A DNA stretch of 64,000 nucleotides, from positions 4,827,501 to 4,891,500 of the forward strand of contig NZ_FMHT01000003.1 of NCBI RefSeq assembly GCF_900091585.1, read 5' to 3'. Source of the DNA: Micromonospora nigra (GTDB lineage: Bacteria; Actinomycetota; Actinomycetes; Mycobacteriales; Micromonosporaceae). The notes below the pieces were generated by a model. It was not told where the DNA came from. It did not search any database and saw nothing but the letters and a program-made list of their open reading frames with translations. Shown one piece after another: positions 4,035-20,030 of this stretch (positions are counted from its first letter, which is position 1; each line of letters starts with the position of its first letter). Made by a program: the position numbers and the translations under genes.

Positions 4035-4107
4035 GCGGACGTAGCGCAGCTGGTAGCGCATCACCTTGCCAAGGTGAGGGTCGCGGGTTCGAATCCCGTC
4101 GTCCGCT
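4035..4107 (+). tRNA. tRNA-Gly (GCC)
   Basis: 73 nt cloverleaf. Acceptor GCGGACG pairs with CGTCCGC, the anticodon loop is TTGCCAA within stem TCACC/GGTGA, and the T-loop is GTTCGAATC. CCA is not encoded. It leads a Gly-Cys-Val unit. An identical copy lies at 4864-4936. Confidence 0.97.
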
Positions 4108-4141
4108 CGGAGCTGCCGCCACGCATGACGGGGGCAACCTC

Positions 4142-4212
4142 GGTGGGGTGGCCGAGAGGCGAGGCAACGGCCTGCAAAGCCGTGTACGCGGGTTCAAATC
4201 CCGTCCCCACCT
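4142..4212 (+). tRNA. tRNA-Cys (GCA)
   Basis: 71 nt cloverleaf. Acceptor GGTGGGG pairs with CCCCACC, the anticodon loop is CTGCAAA, and the T-loop is GTTCAAATC. It is 34 bp after tRNA-Gly. It is not repeated in the second tRNA group. Confidence 0.96.
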
Positions 4213-4227
4213 CGGTGCAACAAGCAC

Positions 4228-4299
4228 GGGCGATTGGCGCAGTGGGAGCGCGCTTCCTTGACACGGAAGAGGTCACTGGTTCAAACCCAGTATCGCCCA
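4228..4299 (+). tRNA. tRNA-Val (GAC)
   Basis: 72 nt cloverleaf. Acceptor GGGCGAT pairs with ATCGCCC, anticodon stem CTTCC/GGAAG encloses TTGACAC with anticodon GAC. It starts 15 bp after tRNA-Cys. An identical copy is at 4972-5043. Confidence 0.97.
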
Positions 4300-4319
4300 C
4301 CACACGGAACGTTCCGACA

Positions 4320-4348
4320 GGCCCGCTACCGGTATCCGGTAGCGGGCC
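4320..4348 (+). terminator. Hairpin terminator after the tRNA unit
   Basis: Perfect 13-bp stem (4320-4332 with 4336-4348) with a TAT loop, 20 bp after tRNA-Val. There is no long T-tract, as is common for actinobacterial terminators. Confidence 0.75.
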
Positions 4349-4470
4349 TGTCGTCGTGATCGCGAGTTCGAGCGGCGTTGCCCTCCGTCCCCCGTGTGGC
4401 CGGTCTGCCCCGGCGCGGCCGTCCCGCCCCGTCGGCCGCCGGGCGGGCGGTCACCGCGGCGGGCGGGTGG

Positions 4471-4713
4471 TCAACGCGGCGGGGCGACGTCGCGGCTCTC
4501 CTCGACCCGGCGGTACTCGACCGGCTGCTCGGTGGTGGCGACGCTCTCGCGGCGACGACCCCAGAGGAGCGCGGTGAGAATCAGGCCCAGGACGCCGGCC
4601 GCCATCAGGATCCATCCGACCACGTCGATGTTGACGCCTCCGATGCTGGCTTCCACGGCGAAGGTGAGGATCGCGCCGAGCGCGATGAGGAAGATGCTGG
4701 TGCCGATACCCAC
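4471..4713 (-). CDS. Small two-helix membrane protein (DUF6458-like)
   Basis: 80 residues. The GTG start at 4713 is chosen because an AAGGAGG site lies just upstream; longer versions run through the downstream tRNA genes on the other strand and are not credible. Two membrane segments cover about residues 4-22 (SIFLIALGAILTFAVEA) and 27-50 (VNIDVVGWILMAAGVLGLIL), followed by an RRR stop-transfer and a charged tail. It resembles DUF6458, a family of unknown function widespread in actinobacteria. It lies convergent with and between two tRNA units. Confidence 0.75.
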   Translation of the reverse strand: MGIGTSIFLIALGAILTFAVEASIGGVNIDVVGWILMAAGVLGLILTALLWGRRRESVATTEQPVEYRRVEESRDVAPPR

Positions 4714-4863
4714 GACAGCCTCCTTCGGGAAGTGGGCGGTGTGCTGTCGAGGTTCGTCAGTACCCACCCGTCGAGCAGCGCAACCGCGCACGCGACGGGG
4801 GTGCACCCGGGGCGATCTTGCCGTCGGGTACAGTGGTGCCGTCGCCGGGAACACCGGGGGCAC

Positions 4864-4936
4864 GCGGACGTAGCGCAGCTGGTAGCGCATCACCTTGCCA
4901 AGGTGAGGGTCGCGGGTTCGAATCCCGTCGTCCGCT
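4864..4936 (+). tRNA. tRNA-Gly (GCC), second copy
   Basis: Identical to 4035-4107; the identity includes 14 bases upstream (88 bp in all, 4021-4108 and 4850-4937). TACAGT at 4829-4834, preceded by GGG, is a likely -10 element; no good -35 is seen. Confidence 0.97.
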
Positions 4937-4971
4937 CTCGACCACCCACCCCAGGTGCGGGCGGTCACCAC

Positions 4972-5043
4972 GGGCGATTGGCGCAGTGGGAGCGCGCTTC
5001 CTTGACACGGAAGAGGTCACTGGTTCAAACCCAGTATCGCCCA
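4972..5043 (+). tRNA. tRNA-Val (GAC), second copy
   Basis: Identical to 4228-4299; 78 bp are identical including short flanks (4225-4302 and 4969-5046). It follows the second tRNA-Gly by 35 bp, with no tRNA-Cys between them. Confidence 0.97.
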
Positions 5044-5169
5044 CCATCCCGGGGCAGTCTCCCGTCCCGCCCGTCGCTGCCCAGCCCCGTTCGGTCGTTC
5101 GCGTGCCGAGGGGTAGGGTGCGGCGCTCCGGGCTTCGCCGCACCCCACCCGGCATGGGATCGATCGGTG

Positions 5170-6369
5170 TCAGCCCGCCCGGCGGGGCTTGTGGATGGCG
5201 CGAGGCAGGACGTACGGCGGGCCGGCGAAGATCAGATCGGACTTGATCTCGTAGAATGCCCGCTTGGGCTGGTAGTCCTCGTCGTAGAGCGTGGCGAGGC
5301 CCTCCGGCGGGTCGTCGAACCAGCCGGGCACCCAGGAGTGCCGGTCGGTGAAGCCCCACACCGTGTACGACAGGCAGCTTCGCACGGCCAGGCACGCCTT
5401 CATCAGGACACTGAAGTTGGCGGCGGACGCCTGTAGCCGCGGGTTGATCTCCTCGGAGTCGCCGGCCTGGACGCCGTCGGTGAGCCGGCTGCGCACGTCG
5501 ACCTCGGTGAAGGCGGTGGCGAGGCCGAGGGCGGCGAACCTCTTCAGCGCGGCGGCGACCTGGAGGGTGTCGTAGTTGCCGTACTGGGTGCCCAGGTGGC
5601 CCTGGCTGCCGACGCCGTCGATCGGTACGCCCTCGGCGCGCAGTCGCTTCGCCATGTCGTACACGAACTGGGTCTTGTCGTCGGCGGGGTCGCCGGAACC
5701 GAAGGCCTCGATGTTGTAGTCGTTGTAGAACAGCAGGGCCCTCGGGTCGGCGGCCCGGGCCCAGCGGAACGCGTCGGCGATGTAGCCGGGGCCGAGATGC
5801 TCGGCCCAGAAGCCCTTGTAGTGCAGGGTGGACGGGGTGTCCCAGGGGTCGCTGACGGCCTCGTTGACCACGTCCCACTGCCAGATCTTGCCCCGGTAGC
5901 GGCTGACCACGGTGGTGATGTGGTTGCGCAGCAGCTCACGCAGCTCCTGCGTGCTGATCGAACCGTCCTCGACGCCACTGGTCAACCAGCCGGGCAACTG
6001 GTTGTGCCAGACCAGGACGTGCCCGCGCACGCTCTGCCGGTTGCGCTTGGCGAAGGCGACCAGCTCGTCGGCGGCGGCCCAGTCGTAGCTGCCCCGGGTG
6101 GGTTCCAGGCTCTCCCACTTCATGACGTTCTCGGCGGTCACCGAGGCGAACTCCGACGCGGCGAGTTCCCGGTAGCGGGGGTCGGCGGGGTCGTTCAGGG
6201 CGGCCATGTCGACGGCGGTGCCGACGTGCAGGCCGTGGCGCAGTCCGAGGGTGCCCAGGCTCTGCGCCGTGGGGTCGTACGGTCGGCCGGCGGTGGCGGG
6301 CAGGGTGTTCAGGGCCGTGACGGTCGCGAGGGCGACCGCGGCGACGGCTGTCCACCGTCTGAGCTTCAT
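5170..6369 (-). CDS. Secreted endo-1,4-beta-xylanase, GH10
   Basis: 399 residues. A signal peptide (KLRR, then a hydrophobic stretch to about residue 28) precedes a single GH10 barrel with no carbohydrate-binding module. Motifs include WHNQLPGWL, WDVVNEAV with acid/base E170, and AFTEVDVR with nucleophile E289. The enzyme cleaves xylan backbones outside the cell. ATG at 6369 follows AAGGA by 8 bp. It lies 69 bp downstream of the beta-xylosidase gene in the same direction, so the pair is probably one transcript from the divergent promoter region near 8.1-8.3 kb. Confidence 0.95.
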   Translation of the reverse strand: MKLRRWTAVAAVALATVTALNTLPATAGRPYDPTAQSLGTLGLRHGLHVGTAVDMAALNDPADPRYRELAASEFASVTAENVMKWESLEPTRGSYDWAAADELVAFAKRNRQSVRGHVLVWHNQLPGWLTSGVEDGSISTQELRELLRNHITTVVSRYRGKIWQWDVVNEAVSDPWDTPSTLHYKGFWAEHLGPGYIADAFRWARAADPRALLFYNDYNIEAFGSGDPADDKTQFVYDMAKRLRAEGVPIDGVGSQGHLGTQYGNYDTLQVAAALKRFAALGLATAFTEVDVRSRLTDGVQAGDSEEINPRLQASAANFSVLMKACLAVRSCLSYTVWGFTDRHSWVPGWFDDPPEGLATLYDEDYQPKRAFYEIKSDLIFAGPPYVLPRAIHKPRRAG

Positions 6370-6438: not shown

Positions 6439-8061
6439 TCAGTCCTCCCGGTAGGTGGCCTGGTCGAAGTCGGCGTACCGCCCGTCGCCGCCCAGGTCCT
6501 GCACCCACAGGCCCAGGAACGCGCCGGTGAACCCCCAGGCGGCGGGCTCGCCGTCGACGATCATCGCGGCGTGCTCGTCGGACAGGATGGTGGCGTCCAG
6601 ATCGACGGGGACGGGTCGCCAGCCGTCGCCGAGGTCGTAGCCGAACCGCAGCGTCGGCCCGTCGAAGGCCACGCGCAGGCCCACCCGGGTGGCCGCGCCG
6701 ACGTCGACGGTGAGAGCGGGGTACGCCGTCCGCCGGCCGCTGTCACAGCTGAGCACCTCCAGCACCACCGCGCCGTCGTCGGCGCGGGTGAGGTAGAGGT
6801 AGTGCCAGTTCAGGGTGTTGTAGTAGCCGGTGACGCCGGCCAGGTGCCGGTGGTCGGCCGGATCGAACTCCACGACGGTCTCCAACGTGCACCGGGGTGC
6901 GCCGACGCGCCGCGCGACCAGGCTGGGCGTCTGGCGGCCGACCGGTGACTGGCCTCCGTAGACGCGCAGGTGGGAGGGGCGCGAACGCAGGTCCAGCCAG
7001 TCGGGGGACGCCGGGCGGCGCAGCGTGGACCAGCAGGTGTCCAGCTCGGGCGCGTCGAAGTGGTCGGTCGCGGTGTCCTGCGGCCACGGGTGGGCCGGCA
7101 GGTCCGGTGCGAGGAACTCGTCGGCGGGAATGCCGCCGGCGACGCGCGGCCAGTCCCCGGTGGGCCAGTCGACCCGCTGGATCGCCGTCTCGCGTCCCAA
7201 CACGCAGTTGCCCAGCGGGGTGTAGGGGCGCGCGACCAGGTGGGCCAGGAACCACTCGCCGCGCGGGGTGCGGACCAGGCTGCCGTGCCCGGCCTTCTGC
7301 AACGTCAGGTCGGGGCGGCCGACGGAGGTGAGCAGCGGACCGCCCGGGTGCACCTCGTACGGCCCGAACAGGTGGCGGGCCCGGGCGACGGTGACCTGGT
7401 GCTCCCAGCTCGTCCCGCCCTCGGCGGTGACCAGCCAGTACCAGCCGTCGTGGCGGTACAGGTGCGGGCCCTCGGTGAGCCCGGCCTCGGTGCCGGTGAA
7501 GATGATGCGGGGGCGGCCGACGAGCGCTCGGGCCGCCCGGTCGTACTGCTGGATCTCGATGCCGCCGAATCGGTCGCGGCCCGGCCGCCAGTCGGCGCTC
7601 ATCGCCAGCAGCCAGCTCGTGCCGTCGTCGTCGTGGAACAGCGACGCGTCGAAGCCGCGCGAGTGCAGCGGCACCGGGTCGGACCAGGGGCCGCTGATGT
7701 CGGGCGCGGTGGTGAGGAAGTTCTGCGCGTCCCAGTAGCCGCTGGCGAAGCTTGCCACGTCGCTGTAGACGAGGTGGAACAGCCCGTCGTGGTGGGTGAG
7801 GTCGGGTGCCCAGATCCCGTTGGAGTCGCCGCAGCCGCGCAGGTCGAGCAGACGCCGTTCGGTGACGATCCCACCCAGCGGTCGCCAGTGCACCAGGTCG
7901 CGGGAGTGGTGCACACGCACCCCCGGATACCACTCGAACGTCGAGGTGGCCAGGTAGTAGTCGTCGCCGACGCGCAGGATCGACGGGTCCGGGTGGAATC
8001 CGGTGAGGACGGGGTTGCGGATCGACCGGGCCGTGGCCACGTTCGCGATCTCGGTCGACAT
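6439..8061 (-). CDS. GH43 beta-xylosidase / arabinofuranosidase type glycosidase
   Basis: 540 residues from ATG 8061, which has AAGGAG 6 bp upstream; a longer reading adds 24 residues without a site. There is no signal peptide, so it probably acts in the cytoplasm on imported oligosaccharides. The N-terminal five-bladed propeller starts with NPVLTGFHPDPSI (base D25), then GIWAPDLTHHDG and TEGPHLYRHDGWYWL, the latter holding the likely acid Glu. The C-terminal 200 residues form the beta-sandwich domain usual in GH43 beta-xylosidases. It lies upstream of the xylanase and divergent from the importer. Beta-xylosidase is the most likely activity; arabinofuranosidase cannot be excluded. Confidence 0.92.
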   Translation of the reverse strand: MSTEIANVATARSIRNPVLTGFHPDPSILRVGDDYYLATSTFEWYPGVRVHHSRDLVHWRPLGGIVTERRLLDLRGCGDSNGIWAPDLTHHDGLFHLVYSDVASFASGYWDAQNFLTTAPDISGPWSDPVPLHSRGFDASLFHDDDGTSWLLAMSADWRPGRDRFGGIEIQQYDRAARALVGRPRIIFTGTEAGLTEGPHLYRHDGWYWLVTAEGGTSWEHQVTVARARHLFGPYEVHPGGPLLTSVGRPDLTLQKAGHGSLVRTPRGEWFLAHLVARPYTPLGNCVLGRETAIQRVDWPTGDWPRVAGGIPADEFLAPDLPAHPWPQDTATDHFDAPELDTCWSTLRRPASPDWLDLRSRPSHLRVYGGQSPVGRQTPSLVARRVGAPRCTLETVVEFDPADHRHLAGVTGYYNTLNWHYLYLTRADDGAVVLEVLSCDSGRRTAYPALTVDVGAATRVGLRVAFDGPTLRFGYDLGDGWRPVPVDLDATILSDEHAAMIVDGEPAAWGFTGAFLGLWVQDLGGDGRYADFDQATYRED

Positions 8062-8093
8062 GTTCGGCTCCTTGATGCTCTGGCTCCGGTGTT

Positions 8094-8108
8094 CCGGAAG
8101 TTTATCGG
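8094..8108. promoter_or_regulatory. Imperfect operator-like palindrome upstream of the GH43 gene
   Basis: CCGGAAGTTTATCGG keeps the CCG...GTTT...CGG plan of the perfect site at 8228-8240 and lies 33 bp upstream of the GH43 start. It is a candidate second LacI-family site in the divergent region. Confidence 0.35.
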
Positions 8109-8164
8109 CCGTCGATGGCGGAAGTGCGCTCACCGTATCGAGTGAAGTCGAGATTCGACACCCC

Positions 8165-8207: not shown

Positions 8208-8240
8208 TCGAAACTACCGGCAATGATCCGAAAGTTTCGG
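8208..8240. promoter_or_regulatory. Tandem LacI-type operators for the xylan locus
   Basis: CCGAAAGTTTCGG at 8228-8240 is a perfect 13-bp palindrome. TCGAAACTACCGG at 8208-8220 is a degenerate version centred 20 bp (two helical turns) away. CGAA...TTCG palindromes are typical of LacI-family xylo-oligosaccharide regulators of streptomycetes such as BxlR (from memory). They lie between the promoter and the binding-protein start. Confidence 0.6.
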
Positions 8241-8312
8241 ACCGCGTTTCCGCCTCCACCCGCCGACCTGTCGGCGTTTCGCGTACCTCAGACGTCCTCG
8301 AAGGGATGGCAC

Positions 8313-9605
8313 ATGACAGCGCACCTCTCCCGCAGATCCTTGCTGGGCCTGGTCGGCGCGGGCGCCGGCGCGCTCCTGCTCGGCGGCTGCGGCGACGACG
8401 GGTCCGACTCGAACTCCGGATCGCAGACCATCGACTGGTGGCACATCCAGAACACCGAGCCGATGCTGCCCGTCTGGGCTGCCATGGCCAAGGAGTACGA
8501 GACCGCCAAGGGCAACCTCACGGTCGAGATCCAGCCGCTGGAGAACGAGGCGTTCAAGGCCAAGCTGACCACCGCAACCCAGGCCGGGTCCCCGCCGGAC
8601 CTCTTCCAGTCGTGGGGCGGCGGCGTGCTCCGCCAGCAGGTCGACGCCGGGCTGGTCAAGGACATCACCGACGACGTGCAGCCGTGGGTCGGCAACCTGC
8701 TGCCCGTGTCCCTCGAACCGTTCACCGTCGACGGGAGGATCTACGGCATCCCGTTCGACGTGGGCATGGTCGGCTTCTGGTACAACCGCGACCTGTTCGC
8801 CAAGGCCGGCATCGAGGCCCCGCCGAAGAGCTGGGCGGAACTGCTCGGCACCGTCACCCGGATCAAGGCCGCCGGCATCGTTCCCATCGCGCTCGGCGGG
8901 AAGGAGAAGTGGCCGGCCCACTTCTACTGGGCGTACCTGGCCATGCGCATCGGTGGCCTCGACGCGCTGCGCCGCGCCGCCGAGGACAAGAACTTCGACA
9001 CCCCGGACTTCGTCGCCGCCGGTCAGCGACTCAAGGAACTCGTCGATCTGTCACCCTTCCAGAAGGGTTTCCTGGGCGCCGACTACAGCTCCCCGGACGG
9101 GCAGGCCGCCATCATGGGCAACGGCGGCGCGGCCATGGAACTGATGGGCCAGTGGGCGCCGTCGGTGCAGGCGTCGGCCTCGACCGGGAAGAAGGGCCTC
9201 GGTGACCGGCTGGCCTTCTTCCAGTTCCCCGCCGTCGAAGGTGGCAAGGGCACCGTCTCCGAGGTGTTCGGCGGTGGCAACGGCTTCGCCATCGGCCGCA
9301 ACGCCCCCGCCTCCACGGTCGACTTCCTGCGGGTCCTGCTGGAGGTGGAGAACCAGCGAAAGGCCGCCGCGACCGGCGCGGTGCTGCCCACCAACCGGGC
9401 CGCCGCCGACGCCATCGAAGACCCGAACAGCAAGGTCGTGGCCGCGACGCTGGCCAGCGCCACCGGCTTCCAGCTCTACCTCGACCAGGCGTACCCGCCG
9501 GCGGTGGGCCAGCAGGTCAACGACAGCGTGGCCGAGTTGATCGCCGGCTCGAAGAGCCCGGAGCAGATCGTCAAGGACATCACCGCGGTGGCGAAGAGCC
9601 AGTAA
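8313..9605 (+). CDS. Extracellular sugar-binding lipoprotein of ABC importer (xylo-oligosaccharide type)
   Basis: 430 residues from ATG 8313, preceded by AAGGGA; this start puts the signal peptide at the N-terminus (SRRSLLGLVGAGAGALLLGGC), a lipoprotein signal with lipobox LGGC and a twin-arginine pair. The mature part is a class I sugar-binding fold (DWWHIQNTEP, PPDLFQSWGGG, GIPFDVGMVGFWYNRDLF). It should be anchored outside the membrane and deliver oligosaccharides to the two permeases that follow at 55 bp. No ATPase is encoded; such importers in actinobacteria usually share a common MsiK-type ATPase. The ligand is inferred from neighbouring xylanase and xylosidase genes. Confidence 0.92.
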   Translation: MTAHLSRRSLLGLVGAGAGALLLGGCGDDGSDSNSGSQTIDWWHIQNTEPMLPVWAAMAKEYETAKGNLTVEIQPLENEAFKAKLTTATQAGSPPDLFQSWGGGVLRQQVDAGLVKDITDDVQPWVGNLLPVSLEPFTVDGRIYGIPFDVGMVGFWYNRDLFAKAGIEAPPKSWAELLGTVTRIKAAGIVPIALGGKEKWPAHFYWAYLAMRIGGLDALRRAAEDKNFDTPDFVAAGQRLKELVDLSPFQKGFLGADYSSPDGQAAIMGNGGAAMELMGQWAPSVQASASTGKKGLGDRLAFFQFPAVEGGKGTVSEVFGGGNGFAIGRNAPASTVDFLRVLLEVENQRKAAATGAVLPTNRAAADAIEDPNSKVVAATLASATGFQLYLDQAYPPAVGQQVNDSVAELIAGSKSPEQIVKDITAVAKSQ

Positions 9606-9660: not shown

Positions 9661-10659
9661 ATGAGCATGTCACCGGCCGCCGGGCTGCGCCACGACGCCC
9701 CGACGTCCCGGCCTCCGACGGCCGCCCCGGCGATCCCGCCCACGCGGGGCCGCCGGGGCGGGTTGTCCCGGCTCGGTACCATCGCGATCTTCCTGGCCCC
9801 GGCCCTGGTGCTGTTCCTGCTCCTGGTGATCGCACCGATCGTCATCGCCGGCTACGCCAGTGTGTTCCGCTGGAACGGCTTCGGGCTGCCCGAGGAGTTC
9901 ATCGGTCTCGACAACTTCACCCGCGCCTTCGGCGACCCCGTCTTCCGGGGCGACCTGTGGCGCGGGGCCGTCCTGATCGGGCTCTCACTGGTCATCCAGT
10001 TGCCCGTGTCGCTGGGGCTGGCGATGCTGCTCAACCAGCCGCTGCGGGGCCGCAGTCTCTACCGGGTGGTGTTCTTCGCCCCGTACGTGCTCTCGGAGGT
10101 CACCACCGCGGTGCTGTTCACCCTGGTGCTGTCCCCGAACCGGGGGCTGGGCGACACGCTGTCGGGGTGGCTGGGCGTGGACGTCGGCGGCGCGGTCTTC
10201 GCCGACCCCGACACGGTGCTGTTCGCGCTGTTCCTGGTCGTGTCCTGGAAGTACTTCGGCTTCCACATGATCCTCTACCTGTCGGGGCGGCAGAACATCC
10301 CACAGGAGTTGACCGAGGCCGCCACCACCGACGGCGCCAGCACCTGGCAGGTCTTCCGGTACGTGACGCTGCCGCTGCTGGGCCCCACCATCCGGATCAG
10401 CGTGTTCCTGTCGGTGATCGGCACGATCCAACTGTTCGACATGGTCTGGGTGCTCACCGGCGGCGGCCCGATCCACGCGTCGGAAACCATGGCGGTGACC
10501 ATGTACCAGTACGGCTTCCGCCGCTTCGAGGTCGGCTACGCCAGCGCGATCAGCATCGTCATGTTCCTGCTCAGTCTCGTCTTCGCGCTGCTCTACCAGC
10601 GTTTCGTCATGCGCCGCGACGTCGAGGGCGCCATCACCACCCGGGGGGTCCAGCGATGA
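9661..10659 (+). CDS. ABC sugar importer permease (MalF type)
   Basis: 332 residues. The cytoplasmic N-terminus is followed by six membrane segments (first IAIFLAPALVLFLLLVIAPI). The EAA loop that docks the ATPase reads EAATTDGASTWQVFRYVTLPLL. ATG 9661 has GGAG 8 bp upstream. It overlaps the next permease gene by 4 bases (ATGA), indicating translational coupling. It forms the membrane channel with that protein for the xylan-locus importer. Confidence 0.93.
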   Translation: MSMSPAAGLRHDAPTSRPPTAAPAIPPTRGRRGGLSRLGTIAIFLAPALVLFLLLVIAPIVIAGYASVFRWNGFGLPEEFIGLDNFTRAFGDPVFRGDLWRGAVLIGLSLVIQLPVSLGLAMLLNQPLRGRSLYRVVFFAPYVLSEVTTAVLFTLVLSPNRGLGDTLSGWLGVDVGGAVFADPDTVLFALFLVVSWKYFGFHMILYLSGRQNIPQELTEAATTDGASTWQVFRYVTLPLLGPTIRISVFLSVIGTIQLFDMVWVLTGGGPIHASETMAVTMYQYGFRRFEVGYASAISIVMFLLSLVFALLYQRFVMRRDVEGAITTRGVQR

Positions 10660-11495
10660 CCAGACCGGCCACCCCCGCCGGGCGGACGCGACACCTGCTG
10701 CTGCACGTCGTGTCCGTCGTGATCGGGGCCCTCATCGTCGTTCCCGTCGGGTTCGGGGTGCTGGGCGGCTTCAAGGACAACGGCCAGCTGTCGGTCAACC
10801 CACTGGGGCTGCCCGACCCCTGGGTGCCGTCGAACTACGTCGACATCCTCGCCTCGGACGTGTTCTGGCGGCAGGTGGGCAACAGCACGCTCATCGCCGT
10901 CGCGACCACCCTCGTGGTGGTGGGCGCCTCGGCGATGGCGGCGTTCGTCTTCGCCCGCTTCGCCTTCCGGGGACGGGAGATGCTGTTCACCCTGTTCGCG
11001 GTGGGCCTGATGTTCCCCTTCGCGGTGGCCATCCTGCCGCTGTTCATCCTGCTGCGCGGCATGGGGCTGCTCGACAACCCGCTCGGTGTGATCCTGCCGC
11101 AGGCGGCCTTCGGGTTGCCGGTCACCATCATCGTGCTGCGGCAGTTCTTCCGGACGATCCCCGCCGAGGTGGAGGAGGCCGCGACGCTCGACGGCTGCTC
11201 CGCCTTCGGGTTCTTCTGGCGGATCCTGCTGCCGATGGCCCGCCCGGCGCTGGCGACCGTGTCGGTACTGGCGATCGTGGCCAGCTGGAACAACTTCATG
11301 CTGCCGCTGGTGGTGTTCACCGACCAGAGCTGGTGGACCCTGCCAGTCGGGGTGCAGGCGTTCCAGGGCCAGTACGCCGACGACACGGCGCGGGTGCTGG
11401 CGTACGTCGTGCTGTCGATGGTCCCGGCGCTGGGCTTCTACGCCGTGGCCGAACGGCAGCTCATCGGCGGCCTTTCCGGCAGTGTCAAGGGCTGA
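10656..11495 (+). CDS. ABC sugar importer permease (MalG type)
   Basis: 279 residues from ATG 10656, inside the stop of the previous gene; the longer reading frame leftward is an overlap artefact. There are six membrane segments, and the EAA motif is EEAATLDGCSAFGFFWRILLP. It is the last gene of the importer operon: the stop codon runs directly into a strong hairpin. It pairs with the MalF-type permease. Confidence 0.93.
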   Translation: MTRPATPAGRTRHLLLHVVSVVIGALIVVPVGFGVLGGFKDNGQLSVNPLGLPDPWVPSNYVDILASDVFWRQVGNSTLIAVATTLVVVGASAMAAFVFARFAFRGREMLFTLFAVGLMFPFAVAILPLFILLRGMGLLDNPLGVILPQAAFGLPVTIIVLRQFFRTIPAEVEEAATLDGCSAFGFFWRILLPMARPALATVSVLAIVASWNNFMLPLVVFTDQSWWTLPVGVQAFQGQYADDTARVLAYVVLSMVPALGFYAVAERQLIGGLSGSVKG

Positions 11496-11547
11496 GGGCC
11501 GAGGGTCCGGTCCACCGGTCGTGCGGTGGACCGGATCCTCGGCCCTC
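11494..11547 (+). terminator. Long hairpin terminator after the importer operon
   Basis: 24-bp stem (11494-11517 with 11524-11547) with one G-U pair and a 6-nt loop. It begins within the permease stop codon and separates the importer operon from the first LacI gene. Confidence 0.8.
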
Positions 11548-11606
11548 GGGCCCCTGGCGCGCGACCTCGCCGTCGATAGGCTCAGGTGACGAGGAAAGGG
11601 CGAGCT

Positions 11607-12638
11607 GTGGCCGTGGACGACAACCGCACCGTGACCATCGCGGCGATCGCACGTCTTGCCGGGGTGTCGGTGCCGACGGTGTCGCGGGTGGTGAACGGGC
11701 GTTCGGATGTGGCTCCGCAGACCCGGGAGCGGGTCGAGGAGTTGTTGGTGCGTCACGGGTACCGGCGTCGGCCGCAGAGTACGCGGGCGAGTTCGGGTCT
11801 GGTGGATCTGGTGTTCAACGATCTGGACAGTCCGTGGGCGGTGGAGATCATCCGTGGGGTGGAGGACGTGGCGCACGCGGCGGGGGTGGGCACGGTCGTG
11901 TCGGCCATCCACCGCCGCACGTCCGCCGCCAAACAGTGGCTCGACAACATCCGGACCCGCTCCACCGAGGGCGTCATCTTCGTGACGTCCACCCTCGAAC
12001 CACCGCAGCAGGCCGAGCTGCGCCGGCTGAACATCCCCGCCGTCATCGTCGACCCGGCCGGCGTACCGTCACAGGAGTCGCCGACGATCGGCGCGACCAA
12101 CTGGGTCGGGAGTCTGCGGGCGACGGAGTATCTGATCGGGTTGGGGCATCGGCGGATCGGTTTCGTGGCGGGTCCGCCGCAGCTGATGTGCAGTCGGGCC
12201 CGGCTGGACGGCTACCGGGCCGCCCTGGAGGCTGCGGGCCTGCCGCTCGACGACGCGCTGATCCGACCGGGGAACTTCTACCACGAGGCCGGCTTCGCCG
12301 CCGGCACGCATCTGCTGGGGCTCTCCGGGCCACCGACGGCGATCTTCGCGTCGAGTGACCAGATGGCGTTGGGGGTGTACGAGGCGGTGCGGCGGCGGGG
12401 GTTGCGGGTGGCCGATGACGTGTCGGTGGTGGGGTTCGACGATCTGCCTGAGGTGCGGTGGTGTTCGCCGCCGTTGACGACGGTGCGTCAGCCGTTGGCG
12501 GAGATGGGGATGTTGGCGGCGCGTACGGTGTTGCGGTTGGCCAACGGGGAGAAGATCGAGAGTCCTCGGGTGGAGTTGGCCACCGAGTTGGTGGTGCGGG
12601 ACAGCGCCGCCCCACCCCGTACCCGCCTGACCGCCTGA
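11607..12638 (+). CDS. LacI family transcriptional regulator, copy 1
   Basis: 343 residues from GTG 11607, which has GGAAAGGG upstream. The LacI head has TIAAIARLAGVSVPTVSRV and hinge-helix residues near 50-60. The sugar-binding core includes GLVDLVFNDLDSPWAVEI and DVSVVGFDDLPEV. It lies after the xylo-oligosaccharide importer and is the likely repressor of that locus. Bases 11661-11916 and 12079-12619 are identical to the next gene at a fixed offset of 1196; only 11917-12078 differ between these blocks. The identical blocks include stretches rich in GTG, TTG and T-ending codons, unlike the C-ending middle. Confidence 0.93.
   Translation: MAVDDNRTVTIAAIARLAGVSVPTVSRVVNGRSDVAPQTRERVEELLVRHGYRRRPQSTRASSGLVDLVFNDLDSPWAVEIIRGVEDVAHAAGVGTVVSAIHRRTSAAKQWLDNIRTRSTEGVIFVTSTLEPPQQAELRRLNIPAVIVDPAGVPSQESPTIGATNWVGSLRATEYLIGLGHRRIGFVAGPPQLMCSRARLDGYRAALEAAGLPLDDALIRPGNFYHEAGFAAGTHLLGLSGPPTAIFASSDQMALGVYEAVRRRGLRVADDVSVVGFDDLPEVRWCSPPLTTVRQPLAEMGMLAARTVLRLANGEKIESPRVELATELVVRDSAAPPRTRLTA
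11661..11916 (+). repeat. Identical block 1 of the LacI pair, first copy
   Basis: 256 bp identical to 12857-13112. It encodes most of the helix-turn-helix, including the recognition helix, the hinge and the first strands of the core domain. Confidence 0.9.
12079..12619 (+). repeat. Identical block 2 of the LacI pair, first copy
   Basis: 541 bp identical to 13275-13815, ending a few codons before the stop of each gene. With block 1 this gives 797 identical bases out of roughly 1030 in each gene. Confidence 0.9.
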
Positions 12639-12676
12639 CCTCGCGCCTGGCCCAACGGGTATCGCCCCCGGGCCTA

Positions 12677-12706
12677 CCTACCGGTAGGCAGGTGAAAGTT
12701 TCGTAC
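12677..12706. promoter_or_regulatory. Operator-like sites between the two LacI genes
   Basis: CCTACCGGTAGG at 12677-12688 is a perfect 12-bp palindrome. TGAAAGTTTCG at 12693-12703 matches the 11-bp core of the xylan operator at 8228-8240 with one mismatch. Both precede the second LacI gene, which suggests auto- or cross-regulation by the LacI pair. Confidence 0.5.
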
Positions 12707-12802
12707 TAGGCTGGGTGCGGGCCGCCGGTGACCGACCGCCGGTCGCGCCGCGTCGAGCACACCCGCCTCGACGCCGTACCGGTATGCGCGAGGGAGCTGT
12801 CC

Positions 12803-13822
12803 GTGGTCGCGAGAGGCACCAGCAGAGTCACCATCGCGACGATCGCCGACCTGGCGGGGGTGTCGGTGCCGACGGTGTCGCGGGTGGTGAACGGGCGTTC
12901 GGATGTGGCTCCGCAGACCCGGGAGCGGGTCGAGGAGTTGTTGGTGCGTCACGGGTACCGGCGTCGGCCGCAGAGTACGCGGGCGAGTTCGGGTCTGGTG
13001 GATCTGGTGTTCAACGATCTGGACAGTCCGTGGGCGGTGGAGATCATCCGTGGGGTGGAGGACGTGGCGCACGCGGCGGGGGTGGGCACGGTCGTGTCGG
13101 CCATCCACCGCCAGACGTCCTCGGCCGCGCAGTGGCTCGAAGGGATGCGTCGACGGGGCACCGAGGGGGCCATCTTCGTGACCTCGAGGGTCGAGCCGCC
13201 CCTGCAGGACGAGCTGCGCCGCCTCGACGTGCCGCTCGTGCTCGTCGACGCCGACGGCGTCCCCCCGCAGCACGCGCCGACGATCGGCGCGACCAACTGG
13301 GTCGGGAGTCTGCGGGCGACGGAGTATCTGATCGGGTTGGGGCATCGGCGGATCGGTTTCGTGGCGGGTCCGCCGCAGCTGATGTGCAGTCGGGCCCGGC
13401 TGGACGGCTACCGGGCCGCCCTGGAGGCTGCGGGCCTGCCGCTCGACGACGCGCTGATCCGACCGGGGAACTTCTACCACGAGGCCGGCTTCGCCGCCGG
13501 CACGCATCTGCTGGGGCTCTCCGGGCCACCGACGGCGATCTTCGCGTCGAGTGACCAGATGGCGTTGGGGGTGTACGAGGCGGTGCGGCGGCGGGGGTTG
13601 CGGGTGGCCGATGACGTGTCGGTGGTGGGGTTCGACGATCTGCCTGAGGTGCGGTGGTGTTCGCCGCCGTTGACGACGGTGCGTCAGCCGTTGGCGGAGA
13701 TGGGGATGTTGGCGGCGCGTACGGTGTTGCGGTTGGCCAACGGGGAGAAGATCGAGAGTCCTCGGGTGGAGTTGGCCACCGAGTTGGTGGTGCGGGACAG
13801 CGCCGCCCCACCCCGCACCTGA
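12803..13822 (+). CDS. LacI family transcriptional regulator, copy 2
   Basis: 339 residues from GTG 12803 with GAGGGAG 6 bp upstream; a GTG 75 bases earlier is open but has no site. The recognition helix and hinge are identical to copy 1, so both should bind the same operator. The middle segment (about 55 residues) differs at about 22 positions, with the same length: for example LDNIRTRSTEG in copy 1 against LEGMRRRGTEG here. This segment lies in the N-terminal subdomain of the sugar-binding core, so the two may respond to different sugars. There is no frameshift or truncation in either gene. Confidence 0.92.
   Translation: MVARGTSRVTIATIADLAGVSVPTVSRVVNGRSDVAPQTRERVEELLVRHGYRRRPQSTRASSGLVDLVFNDLDSPWAVEIIRGVEDVAHAAGVGTVVSAIHRQTSSAAQWLEGMRRRGTEGAIFVTSRVEPPLQDELRRLDVPLVLVDADGVPPQHAPTIGATNWVGSLRATEYLIGLGHRRIGFVAGPPQLMCSRARLDGYRAALEAAGLPLDDALIRPGNFYHEAGFAAGTHLLGLSGPPTAIFASSDQMALGVYEAVRRRGLRVADDVSVVGFDDLPEVRWCSPPLTTVRQPLAEMGMLAARTVLRLANGEKIESPRVELATELVVRDSAAPPRT
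12857..13112 (+). repeat. Identical block 1 of the LacI pair, second copy
   Basis: Identical to 11661-11916 over 256 bp; the boundary at 13112/13113 is sharp. Confidence 0.9.
13275..13815 (+). repeat. Identical block 2 of the LacI pair, second copy
   Basis: Identical to 12079-12619 over 541 bp, with the same offset of 1196 as block 1. Confidence 0.9.
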
Positions 13823-15215: not shown

Positions 15216-16187
15216 TCAGGCCTGCACCGGCACGTCCACCACCTCGTCGACGGCGCGGCGGGGAGTGGGCCAGCCCGGCTGGCCGTAGCCGATGCGCATC
15301 ACCATCTGCGGGGTGCCGAACCGTCCCAGCGACAGCCGGAGCTGGTCCCGCGCCGACGGCACCTCGATCGGCTGGGACAACATCGACGCCGACAGCCCCA
15401 GGTCGGTGGCGGTGAGCAGGATCCGCTGCAACGCCTGGCCGGCGACCACCTGGTCGACGGCGGTGTTGCCGGGGGAGCCGAGCACCGCCACCAGTGGCTC
15501 CGGCTCGAAGTCCCGACCGGGTGCCCGGTTCCGGCCGCCGAAGCCACGGGAGGGCAGAACGTCCTGCGGCTCGGTCTGCGGGCCCCCGGAGGCGGCGGGT
15601 ATCCCGTCGGCGGACTGCTCGGCGCGTACCCAGGCGTCACGTTCCGCCCGGTAGGCTGGGTCGCGTTCCAACACCCGGTGGGCGCTGTGGGCGATCTCGC
15701 CGAACGCGGCGACCGCGCTGACCCCGATCAGCAGTTCCAGCCAGCACTGCTCGGCGCGGGCGGCCTCGCCGAGCCGCCAGCGGGCGTCGGCGGGCACCGG
15801 GTCGGGCCAGAACGGCGCGCGGTTGCTGAACCGACGGGGGATGGCCGCGTGCAGGGCCTGTTCGGCGGGGGTGGGGCGACGCGGCACGTCCGGCAGCAGC
15901 CGGGCCACGACGTCCGGCTCCGCGGGGTACGGGCGCAGCCGGACCGTGGCCGGCGTGCCCGCCACCGCGAGGGCGAGGCGCAGGTTGAACAGCGCCGCCC
16001 CGCAGGCGATCCGGGCACCCCAGCCGCTCGGGTCGGTGGCCGGCAGATGCCGGGTCTGGTCGACGAGGACCTCGATGCCGCCGTCCCGTAGCCGGAACCG
16101 CCACGGCTGGACGTTGTGCAGGGACGGCGCGCGGACCGCGTCGGTCGCGGCGGCCCGCATCTGCTCGACGGTGAAGCCGGTGTCCAT
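15216..16187 (-). CDS. Acg-type FMN-binding protein of nitroreductase fold (first copy)
   Basis: 323 residues. Motifs typical of the mycobacterial Acg/Rv3131 family are present: APSLHNVQPWRFRL near the N-terminus (flavin-binding part), RIACGAALFNLRLAL, and LSASMLSQPIEVPSARDQLR near the C-terminus. These are tandem half-nitroreductase proteins that bind FMN; in mycobacteria several are induced by DosR under hypoxia, and their enzymatic role is unsettled. It diverges from the DosR-like gene across 250 bp that hold two DosR-box-like palindromes, one 72 bp upstream of this start. Confidence 0.88.
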   Translation of the reverse strand: MDTGFTVEQMRAAATDAVRAPSLHNVQPWRFRLRDGGIEVLVDQTRHLPATDPSGWGARIACGAALFNLRLALAVAGTPATVRLRPYPAEPDVVARLLPDVPRRPTPAEQALHAAIPRRFSNRAPFWPDPVPADARWRLGEAARAEQCWLELLIGVSAVAAFGEIAHSAHRVLERDPAYRAERDAWVRAEQSADGIPAASGGPQTEPQDVLPSRGFGGRNRAPGRDFEPEPLVAVLGSPGNTAVDQVVAGQALQRILLTATDLGLSASMLSQPIEVPSARDQLRLSLGRFGTPQMVMRIGYGQPGWPTPRRAVDEVVDVPVQA

Positions 16188-16258
16188 GGTCGTGCTCCTT
16201 CGCGGCTGACTCGCCTGGCTACACCTCCACGGTGCGCCTCAGTCACCCCCGGTGCGCA

Positions 16259-16272
16259 GGGCCGGACGTCCC
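16259..16272. promoter_or_regulatory. DosR-box-like palindrome upstream of the first Acg gene
   Basis: GGGCCGGACGTCCC fits GGG(A/C)C-N4-G(T/G)CCC, the core of the DevR/DosR box (mycobacterial form GGGACTTTAGTCCC). It is 72 bp upstream of the Acg-type start at 16187. Confidence 0.55.
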
Positions 16273-16388
16273 GTCTCCCCGGGCCCCCACGCCCCCCGAG
16301 GTCCCGGATGGCGTTGTGCCACCCGCCACGATCGTCACCCGGGGCTCCCGCGCGGGCGGGCCGTTTCCGCAGTCGGGTGTGCGAGGTG

Positions 16389-16402
16389 GGGACCTTCGGC
16401 CC
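16389..16402. promoter_or_regulatory. DosR-box-like palindrome upstream of the response regulator gene
   Basis: GGGACCTTCGGCCC fits GGGAC-N4-G(T/G)CCC. It lies 36 bp upstream of the DosR-like start, a position that fits autoregulation. Confidence 0.6.
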
Positions 16403-16437
16403 GTGCGGGAGGGGGCCGGACGGGGTAGAAACGAGGG

Positions 16438-17076
16438 ATGATCCGGGTGTTCCTGCTCGACGACCACGAGGTCGTCCGTCGAGGCCTTGCCGACCTGCTC
16501 ACCAACAGTGGTGACATCGAGGTGGTCGGCGAGTCCGGCTCCGCGCAGGAGGCGGCCCGCCGCATCCCGGCGTTGCGGCCCGACGTGGCGATCCTCGACG
16601 CCCGGCTGCCCGACGGCAACGGCATCGACGTGTGCCGCGACATCCGGGCGGTGGACTCCTCGATCAAGGGCCTGATCCTCACCTCGTACGAGGACGACGA
16701 GGCGCTCTTCGCGGCGATCATGGCCGGCGCGTCCGGTTACGTGCTCAAGCAGATCCGGGGCACCGACCTGGTGGACGCCGTCCGTCGCGTCGCCGCCGGG
16801 CAGTCGCTGCTCGACCCGGCCATCACCACCCGCGTGCTGGATCGCATCCGCAGCGGCGTGGAGCAGCCCCGCGAGCTGGAGTCACTCACCGAGCAGGAAC
16901 GGCGGATCCTGGAGTACGTGGCCGAGGGCCTGACCAACCGGGAGATCGCCGGGAAGATGTTCCTGGCCGAGAAGACGGTCAAGAACTACGTGTCGAGCGT
17001 GCTGGCCAAGCTGGGCCTGGAACGGCGCACCCAGGCGGCGGTGCTGGCGACCCGCCTGCTCGGTAAGTCCCACTGA
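16438..17076 (+). CDS. devR: DevR/DosR-like NarL-LuxR response regulator
   Basis: 212 residues, close to the length of mycobacterial DosR. The receiver domain (1-120) has FLLDDHEVVRRGL and the phosphoacceptor D54 in AILDARLPDGNG, the same position as Asp54 of DosR. TSY and the Lys of GYVLKQI complete the pocket. The LuxR output domain has LTEQERRILEYVAEGLTNREIA and MFLAEKTVKNYVSSVLAKLG, whose recognition helix matches DosR almost exactly; therefore the same DNA box is expected. It should activate hypoxia or dormancy genes when phosphorylated. The likely partner kinase is the next gene, convergent with it rather than in one operon. Confidence 0.93.
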   Translation: MIRVFLLDDHEVVRRGLADLLTNSGDIEVVGESGSAQEAARRIPALRPDVAILDARLPDGNGIDVCRDIRAVDSSIKGLILTSYEDDEALFAAIMAGASGYVLKQIRGTDLVDAVRRVAAGQSLLDPAITTRVLDRIRSGVEQPRELESLTEQERRILEYVAEGLTNREIAGKMFLAEKTVKNYVSSVLAKLGLERRTQAAVLATRLLGKSH

Positions 17077-17080
17077 CCCA

Positions 17081-17102
17081 CCGCCTCCGCGAAGGAGGGC
17101 GG
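17081..17102. terminator. Hairpin between convergent response regulator and kinase genes
   Basis: CCGCCTCC at 17081-17088 can pair with GGAGGGCGG at 17094-17102, with one bulged G and a GCGAA loop. It fills the 31-bp gap between the two stops. Confidence 0.45.
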
Positions 17103-17107
17103 CGGGA

Positions 17108-18844
<1,737 letters not shown>

Positions 18845-18876
18845 CTATCGCCCGCGCGATCCGGCCTGCACCGTCG

Positions 18877-19884
18877 CTACTCGCGGTGACCGTCGACGGC
18901 GGACGTGTCCACCACCTGGGCGCGCTCCAGGCGGGGGGTGTGCGAGGGGCCGGCGTGTGCCGGATCGGCGATCCCCAGCCGCAGCACCAGGTACGGGTGA
19001 CCGAGGCCGGCCAGCAACTGACGCAGCGTCTGCCGGGTGCCGGGGACCTCCACCACCCCGCTCAGCGGCACCACCGACACCCCGAGCCGGGTGGCGGTCA
19101 GCCACGCCGCCGACAGGGCCTCCCCGGCGCGCAGCCAGCTGTCCGGTTCGTCCTCGTCGCCGTAGAGCAGCCCGTACGTGGCGGCCCGGTCGTGGCCCGG
19201 CCCCACGGGCAGGGTGCCGGGACGACCGAAGTCACGGGCCGGGACGGTGGTCTGCGGGGCCTGCTCGGGCAGCACCTCCGGGGGCAGCCCGGACCCGCCG
19301 GTGCGGCTGGTCCAGTAGTCCAGTTCCTCGCGTAGCTGCGGGTCCTCCGCTTCCACCGTGGCCGCCTGTGAGGCGGCGGCGGCCAGCTGGAGCATCTGGT
19401 CGGGGCCGAGGACCTGGACGCGGGCGCCCTCCCGGCCGGCCGCCGCGGCGATGGCGGTCAGCGCGACGGCGGGCACCTGCTCGTCGCTGACCGGCCGCCG
19501 GTCGGTGTGTCGGATCTGCATGCACTGCACCATGTGCATCGCGTCGGGTTCGGCGCCGGTGTGTCGCAGGTCGGTGAACCGGGCCAGCAGGTCCGGGTCG
19601 CCCGGCTCGGGCAGTCGGTGCACCGTCGCCGTCCAGCCCTCGGCGGCCAGCGCGAGCCGCGCGTGGTGCAGGGCCGCGCCGCAGCTCAGGGCGAGCAGCA
19701 GCCCTTCCGGGTCGGTGGCGGTGAGCCGCCGGTCGGCGGCCACCCGGAGTTCCAGTGTGTCGGGCAGCACCCGCCACCGCCAGGGCTGGGTGTTGTGCAC
19801 CGACGGGGCGTGGCCGGCCATCGCGGCGGCCTCCGCGAGTGCGGTGGTCAGCGGGTGGTCCGTCGCCGGCGTCTGGTGGCTCAT
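18877..19884 (-). CDS. Acg-type FMN-binding protein of nitroreductase fold (second copy)
   Basis: 335 residues from ATG 19884, with AAAGG 8 bp upstream; a frame extending 15 residues further has no site. It shares APSVHNTQPWRWRV, LALSCGAALHHARLAL and SVVPLSGVVEVPGTRQTLRQLL with the first copy, so the two are diverged paralogs. It lies 41 bp upstream of the DevS-like gene in the same direction, and the two may be co-transcribed from the region holding the DosR-box-like site at 20031-20044. Confidence 0.87.
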   Translation of the reverse strand: MSHQTPATDHPLTTALAEAAAMAGHAPSVHNTQPWRWRVLPDTLELRVAADRRLTATDPEGLLLALSCGAALHHARLALAAEGWTATVHRLPEPGDPDLLARFTDLRHTGAEPDAMHMVQCMQIRHTDRRPVSDEQVPAVALTAIAAAAGREGARVQVLGPDQMLQLAAAASQAATVEAEDPQLREELDYWTSRTGGSGLPPEVLPEQAPQTTVPARDFGRPGTLPVGPGHDRAATYGLLYGDEDEPDSWLRAGEALSAAWLTATRLGVSVVPLSGVVEVPGTRQTLRQLLAGLGHPYLVLRLGIADPAHAGPSHTPRLERAQVVDTSAVDGHRE

Positions 19885-20030
19885 CGTCACGACCTTTCCG
19901 TGTCTCCCCATCCTGCCGCACCCGGTCACGGCCGCGGGGGCGGGTCGGGTTCATCCTGGCTTATCCCACGGTGTCCCGCACGGCCCGGGGTGTGTCCCCG
20001 GCGCGGCGGTGTGTCGGTTCGGTGGTTACG

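Follow-up and report, generated by a model that had tools for sequence, protein, structure and literature searches.

Recurrent part-length gene conversion in a tandem pair of LacI-family regulators of Micromonospora

Two adjacent LacI-family genes, hereafter A and B, lie behind sugar-transporter genes in a 64,000-nucleotide stretch of the Micromonospora nigra genome (contig NZ_FMHT01000003.1, positions 4,827,501 to 4,891,500; hereafter the window). They raise the question of how two neighbouring genes came to be identical in their flanks and divergent in their centre, and what the divergent part is for. Self-alignment of the window reveals two tracts (256 and 541 bp) without a single mismatch, both at an offset of 1196, separated by 162 bp with 51 mismatches, exactly as given in a preliminary description of this locus, and its count of 22 differing residues among the 55 of the centre matches our count by eye on the alignment (Table 1). 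Sequence outside the tracts is unrelated except for diverged N-terminal codons: the identity per 20 bases is about 20-50% downstream and 20-55% upstream, reaching up to 70% in 11620-11659, where these codons lie. Both reading frames are open. By our own reading of the sequence, the likely starts are two GTG codons (11607 and 12803), 1196 apart and each preceded by a purine-rich stretch; the longest open reading frames begin at 11586 (A) and 12728 (B). The two features of LacI/GalR members are present in both proteins, namely an N-terminal helix-turn-helix (HTH) domain (PF00356, 52.1 bits in A and 51.9 bits in B, cut-off 27) and a periplasmic-binding-protein-like effector domain (PF13377, 138.5 and 137.6 bits). 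A Sawyer/GENECONV-style permutation of the polymorphic sites, the type of recombination test suggested in the preliminary description, gave p = 0.0002, the floor with 5000 shuffles, whether all sites or only third codon positions were used. The mosaic is not a chance pattern.

Table 1 Features of the regulator pair and the neighbouring genes, in window positions
Feature	Position	Strand	Basis or remark
GH10 xylanase-type gene	5170..6369	-	Pfam
GH43 beta-xylosidase-type gene	6439..8133	-	Pfam
Operator-like palindrome TCCGAAAGTTTCGGA	8227..8241	.	before substrate-binding-protein gene
ABC sugar-transporter substrate-binding protein	8310..9605	+	Pfam
Two ABC permease genes	9661..11495 (9661-10659, 10656-11495)	+	Pfam
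LacI-family regulator A	11607..12638	+	LacI HTH 52.1 bits, Peripla_BP_3; ancestral-type copy behind transporter genes
Codon 23 of A (Arg)	11652..11654	+	B: Asp at 12848-12850
Homogenised tract 1 in A	11661..11916	+	covers DNA-binding domain (from codon 26), hinge and first part of core
Divergent island 1 in A	11917..12078	+	codons about 111-164; 51/162 bp differ from B
Codon 158 of A (Ala)	12057..12059	+	B: Asp at 13253-13255
Homogenised tract 2 in A	12079..12619	+	identical to 13275-13815
Island 2 of A	12226..12325	+	codons 214-247; identical to B in window genome
Operator-like box GAAAGTTTC	12694..12702	.	before gene B
LacI-family regulator B	12803..13822	+	Pfam; derived copy, operator-like box in front
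Homogenised tract 1 in B	12857..13112	+	identical to tract in A
Divergent island 1 in B	13113..13274	+	B clade in segment tree
Homogenised tract 2 in B	13275..13815	+	identical to tract in A
Island 2 of B	13422..13521	+	homogenised with A in window genome

The pair is not confined to M. nigra. In a survey of 160 genomes of the genus, based on two matches at E <= 1e-172 (a threshold at which more diverged pairs would be missed), 19 genomes contain the pair; all 19 are tandem and all were used. Five pairs from named Catellatospora genomes were added, and a sixth (L098), which is cut by a contig end, was dropped. Since the pairs of L052 (M. fulviviridis) and L159 look Catellatospora-like, they were counted apart, and the 24 pairs comprise 17 Micromonospora-type pairs and seven others. 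The L052 and L159 pairs resemble those of Catellatospora and display little or no conversion, as if their locus had been acquired horizontally. Orthologous pairs occur in a similar gene context in other species, and tandem pairs with A-type and B-type centres are found in both genera; judging from these sequences, A and B are the products of an old tandem duplication. Within the window genome (6.36 Mb, 3 contigs, 14 LacI-type HTH matches), only A and B match at E <= 1e-60, so the several paralogs with shared blocks that had been anticipated there did not appear, and the recurrence is across species instead.

Comparison of the pairs also reveals a second divergent island in the relatives (codons 214-247), beyond the one described before, which is homogenised in the window genome. 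The genes thus divide into five segments (DNA-binding, island 1, middle, island 2 and C-terminus), and for each we asked whether the two copies in a genome resemble each other more than they do any ortholog. Copies of the same genome are closest in the DNA-binding segment of 15 of the 17 Micromonospora-type pairs and 0 of the 7 others, in the C-terminus of 14/17 and in the middle segment of 5/17. For each island this holds in a single Micromonospora-type pair: L055 (M. endophytica) for island 1, the centre being orthologous in the other 16, and the window for island 2, where each copy groups with its orthologs in all of the other 23 pairs. In trees with 48 tips, the minimum number of A/B label changes is 19 for the DNA-binding segment, 13 for the middle and 17 for the C-terminus, and the islands follow the paralog tree with 2 (island 1) and 3 (island 2) changes; a separate 40-tip version covers four segments.

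Silent sites give the same picture. In Micromonospora (17 of the 19 pairs, with L052 and L055 left out and L159 kept), the A-B pS is 0.067 in the DNA-binding segment and 0.082 in the C-terminus, against 0.335 and 0.368 between species (A-A), and it is higher in the islands (island 1, 0.423; island 2, 0.275). The flanks of Micromonospora-type pairs are therefore closer within a genome than between orthologs, silent sites included. Exact tracts start at A-nucleotide 69-71 and end at 329-331 in many species, and the sequences within them differ between species. The run-length permutation restricted to third positions reached the floor (p = 0.0002) in 17/17 Micromonospora-type pairs; the values were 0.20 to 0.94 in Catellatospora (0/5 below 0.05), 0.08 in L052 and 0.011 in L159. 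With all sites, p fell below 0.05 in three of the five Catellatospora pairs (L054, 0.0002; L058, 0.0004; L062, 0.038) and in L159 (0.0002) and stayed above it in L053, L096 and L052; the Catellatospora signal reflects either clustered amino-acid changes or some old conversion. These observations support recurrent gene conversion that homogenises the flanks in many lineages. Its limit lies near codon 23, and most lineages retain codons 111-164 and 214-247 unconverted.

The preliminary description had left two routes to the mosaic, conversion of the DNA-binding and C-terminal parts or replacement of the centre by recombination, and the same-genome clustering of both flanks supports the former. 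Taken alone, the window does look like a recent tandem duplication in which the centre of one copy was then replaced from a foreign LacI gene. We consider this extremely unlikely, since orthologous pairs exist in other species, the centre of B falls within the B clade, the N-terminal codons and the promoter of B resemble those of other B genes, and only A and B match in the genome at the threshold above; the trees, the promoter and the N-terminal codons led us to reject it. An error of assembly or polishing, by which short reads of one copy were copied into the other, would likewise account for an exact identity of 541 bp if the reads had collapsed. However, other assemblies show the same mosaic with some differences within the tracts, and several of these are listed with one or two contigs (G041, G036, G055, G061, G139 and G149), which makes such an artefact highly improbable.

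The fixed A/B differences in Micromonospora (17 of the 19 pairs, chosen as for pS) are located at codons 23, 121, 124, 136, 137, 157 and 158. Codon 23, which we take to lie in helix 1 of the HTH, encodes Arg in 24/24 A and Asp in 24/24 B copies, and codon 158 encodes Ala in 24/24 A and Asp in 23/24 B copies. All of 52 other relatives, which have no tandem neighbour in the stretch examined, lack Asp at codons 23 and 158 and have Asn at 121. Since both Asp residues are absent from these relatives, A is shown to keep the ancestral-type residues and B to be derived, as judged at the marker residues. In the flanks, Micromonospora B often has residues that mark A in Catellatospora. This is consistent with A as the donor of the flanks, without proving it.

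Conversion can also cross an island. In the island-1 tree, B of L055 lies within the A group, and 18 of its 22 marker sites have A-type bases and 4 have B-type bases; A overwrote island 1 of B in this genome. L055 is the sole pair among the 24 with this event, and both of its genes are kept, making it a natural test of whether island 1 matters. In the window, island 1 of A is of A type at 19/24 marker bases and 12/12 marker residues, and island 1 of B is of B type at 18/24 marker bases and 9/12 marker residues. Island 2 of the window has a tree position outside the Micromonospora B clade. Reading this position as a transfer from A onto B was rejected, since its 11 marker sites split into 4 A-type, 4 B-type and 3 other bases.

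Catellatospora, without conversion at third positions, allows the divergence of the segments to be compared. From the DNA-binding segment to the C-terminus, the A-B pS is 0.293, 0.254, 0.305, 0.251 and 0.300, and the corresponding pN is 0.068, 0.134, 0.079, 0.206 and 0.078; pN peaks in both islands and pS does not. The first 23 codons (pS 0.74, pN 0.34) were left aside in this comparison, and they are diverged also in pairs without conversion. Fixed A/B amino-acid differences in Catellatospora occupy 16/88 island codons and 17/231 others (Fisher p = 0.007), where the five pairs share ancestry and the differences are not independent events. Since the amino-acid but not the synonymous divergence peaks in the islands without third-position conversion, the comparison favours selection, without proving it. 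Between species, pN of island 1 is 0.106 in B and 0.028 in A. In our view, selection is the most likely reason why the islands stay different, and the pattern of partial concerted evolution fits the model of divergence peaks under gene conversion, as presented in PMC3924837 and PMC3728101.

Residues were assigned to functions by sequence alignment with E. coli LacI. The effector contacts of LacI, which we take to be positions 73, 75, 76, 79, 125, 148, 149, 161, 193, 197, 220, 246, 248, 274, 293 and 296, all share their commonest residue between A and B (B of L055 left out), and Cys is present at position 246 in seven B copies. Table 2 of PMC3877293, which gives only the top co-evolving positions, lists five ligand positions (79, 125, 191, 246 and 274), 12 at the dimer interface and five in contact with DNA. 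A and B agree in their commonest residue at all five of these ligand positions and at 11 of the 12 interface positions, 3 of the 11 being inside the islands. The exception at the interface is position 113, with Asn in 24/24 A and Gly or Ser in 23/24 B copies; positions 114, 116 and 118 differ as well. Position 7, a DNA contact in that table (codon 19, before the tract), is Ala in 24/24 A and Ser in 16/24 B copies, and Ala in both genes of the window. Other class-specific sites are near the cleft loops in sequence (LacI 128-130 and 150-153, and in relatives also 216-219), and by LacI numbering the class-specific sites would lie around the cleft in space. A difference in the pocket is not supported as the cause, since the aligned ligand contacts share their commonest residues, and the earlier suggestion that the two proteins sense different sugars thus finds no direct support. 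Because the ligand contacts are alike and the differences lie near the cleft and the interface, we consider it likelier that A and B differ in response or partnering than that their sugar contacts simply changed.

Selection remains unproven in this reading because island 1 may persist simply as a segment already too different to convert. The same conversion history would then leave the islands behind a passive barrier, diverged beyond pairing, with no selection for two functions. Such a barrier would be self-reinforcing; over island 1, A and B share 68.5-79.6% identity in the 13 pairs of Micromonospora type compared (L055 aside), and a divergence threshold as high as 20 percent is cited in PMC3728101. 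However, both islands have been reached by conversion, island 1 in L055 and island 2 in the window genome, amino-acid divergence peaks in the same islands in Catellatospora, and several B-specific residues are kept across both genera, so we regard a purely passive barrier as unlikely. The two crossings, one of them with both genes kept, count against selection as well. If selection does act, the islands may serve to prevent A-B mixed dimers, that is, paralogue interference, rather than to provide different inducers. The consistent difference at position 113 and those at 114, 116 and 118 argue for this, as does the agreement at the five tabulated ligand positions. On the other hand, mixed dimers look possible with 11 of the 12 interface positions alike, 3 of these within the islands, and residues near the cleft differ too; avoidance of mixed dimers seems doubtful as the main role of the islands.

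The gene context suggests what the pair might control. GH10 and GH43 genes on the minus strand are followed on the plus strand by the genes for a sugar-binding protein, two permeases, A and B. By these Pfam matches the cluster is of xylan type, with the substrate of the transporter predicted from sequence. The ten relatives L045, L047, L048, L049, L050, L056, L057, L160, L161 and L162 have A directly after the binding-protein gene and no match to the two window permease genes at E <= 1e-30 in the stretch examined; L046 and L055 have neither a permease nor a binding-protein match there. Between the second permease gene and A, a long GC-rich inverted repeat is seen by eye at 11496-11560. It is terminator-like, with no evident T run, and may lower the expression of A relative to the transporter.

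BxlR is a LacI-type repressor of xylobiose uptake clusters in Streptomyces (PMC12772271). The same paper reports a CGAANNTTTCG motif at xylan promoters of Streptomyces as well as ahead of a BxlR homolog. By sequence match, this type of operator is found exactly at 8229-8239 and with one mismatch at 12693-12703. The 64-kb window contains only two GAAANTTTC sites, against 0.056 expected from base composition, and the candidate box before the transporter genes and before gene B agrees with a BxlR-like operator. Over the whole genome, CGAAANTTTC occurs at four places (five rows, one place being matched on both strands), two of them in the window; the reversed-motif control gave one row, and base composition predicts about four. 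Because the genome-wide count is near expectation, only the local clustering is notable. A wider regulon is not claimed, since the other two places (L163 and L164) have no evident xylan genes adjoining in their open reading frame lists, inspected by eye.

The promoter region of B is alignable over the 24 pairs, and its box varies. In 7/24 pairs, the 160 bp ahead of the aligned B start contain a box that departs from CGAAANTTTCG at no more than one base; an exact operator before B in all relatives was thus rejected, 17/24 having more than one mismatch. The earlier proposal that both proteins bind the same operator is likely to hold in the window, where the two DNA-binding parts agree from codon 26 onward and a BxlR-like box precedes both units. 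Ser at LacI position 7 in 16/24 B copies and a fitting box in 7/24 pairs only speak against it as a general rule across the pairs. Just ahead of the operator-like box of B, at 12675-12690, lies a palindrome of TACCGGTAG type that might serve as another binding site or belong to the promoter. By eye, it is seen in most pairs, is weaker in L027 and L158 and is not seen in L052 and L159.

Taken together, we consider the following reading probable. A and B arose by an old tandem duplication of a gene for a BxlR-like LacI repressor, and in many Micromonospora lineages recurrent conversion keeps the two copies alike in the DNA-binding part with the hinge and in the C-terminal half. Conversion occasionally crosses an island, as from A to B in island 1 of L055 and in the homogenisation of island 2 in the window, and selection would keep the islands different because they hold the residues that make B a distinct regulator. 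In the window, both proteins would share as their operator the GAAANTTTC box that precedes the transporter genes as well as gene B. They would differ in allosteric response or partner choice rather than in direct ligand contacts, through residues near the cleft in sequence (LacI 128-130 and 150-153; 216-219 in relatives) and in the N-subdomain interface region (113-118). Two inputs on one operator are plausible. More tentatively, the pair may form a one-operator, two-sensor module, in which conversion keeps the binding and dimerisation parts the same, letting both proteins fit one operator and perhaps one another, and selection rejects conversion in the two islands and at the helix-1 residue, so that B stays distinct in its allosteric or partner behaviour. 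If so, the red and green opsins would have a bacterial counterpart in this pair, perhaps with A-B mixed dimers that integrate two xylan-derived signals.

Known systems share parts of this arrangement. A and B are likened to BxlR by gene context and box sequence: as in the clusters described in PMC12772271, the pair lies beside a transporter of one substrate-binding protein and two permeases and a beta-xylosidase gene, with CGAAA-N-TTTCG-type boxes by sequence match. It differs in having two tandem copies instead of one and a GH43 instead of a GH3 xylosidase. Neither A nor B reaches the cut-off of any NCBIfam equivalog. GalR and GalS of E. coli are isorepressors with 54% identity and the same effector, encoded at separate loci (PMC3877293). 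They resemble A and B as two LacI-family paralogs on one operator, which is predicted for A and B, whereas A and B are adjacent and have parts kept identical by conversion. Homogenised flanks, divergent islands and occasional island crossing are also features of partial concerted evolution with a divergence peak, from which the present case is set apart by concerning bacterial transcription factors. Long-lasting concerted evolution in prokaryotes is described for 26 genes such as tuf and amoCAB (PMC6053082). These are ongoing, full-length cases, unlike A and B, which are homogenised in parts only; that study leaves part-length cases that have ceased to be ongoing to future work, and the word LacI is absent from its main text. 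In open-licence papers, searched by titles and the starts of abstracts, gene conversion in LacI-family duplicates was not found, and for tandem LacI genes in Micromonospora xylanase work the open-licence papers yielded only a natural-product review. What is new here is a bacterial regulator pair in which conversion recurs over part of the length and islands are protected. It offers a natural experiment over many species in how duplicated regulators stay operator-compatible yet diverge, and the seven codons with fixed differences in Micromonospora are candidates for separating two LacI-type repressors with ligand contacts unchanged.

Two further arrangements were observed elsewhere in the window. 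At 15216-19929, a NarL-type response regulator and a NarX-like histidine kinase lie between two FMN oxidoreductases of the Acg family, an order that we take to be reminiscent of dormancy (DosR-type) clusters. At 4035-5046, there are two copies each of the tRNA-Gly(GCC) and tRNA-Val(GAC) genes at a spacing of about 0.8 kb, and the first group also includes tRNA-Cys.
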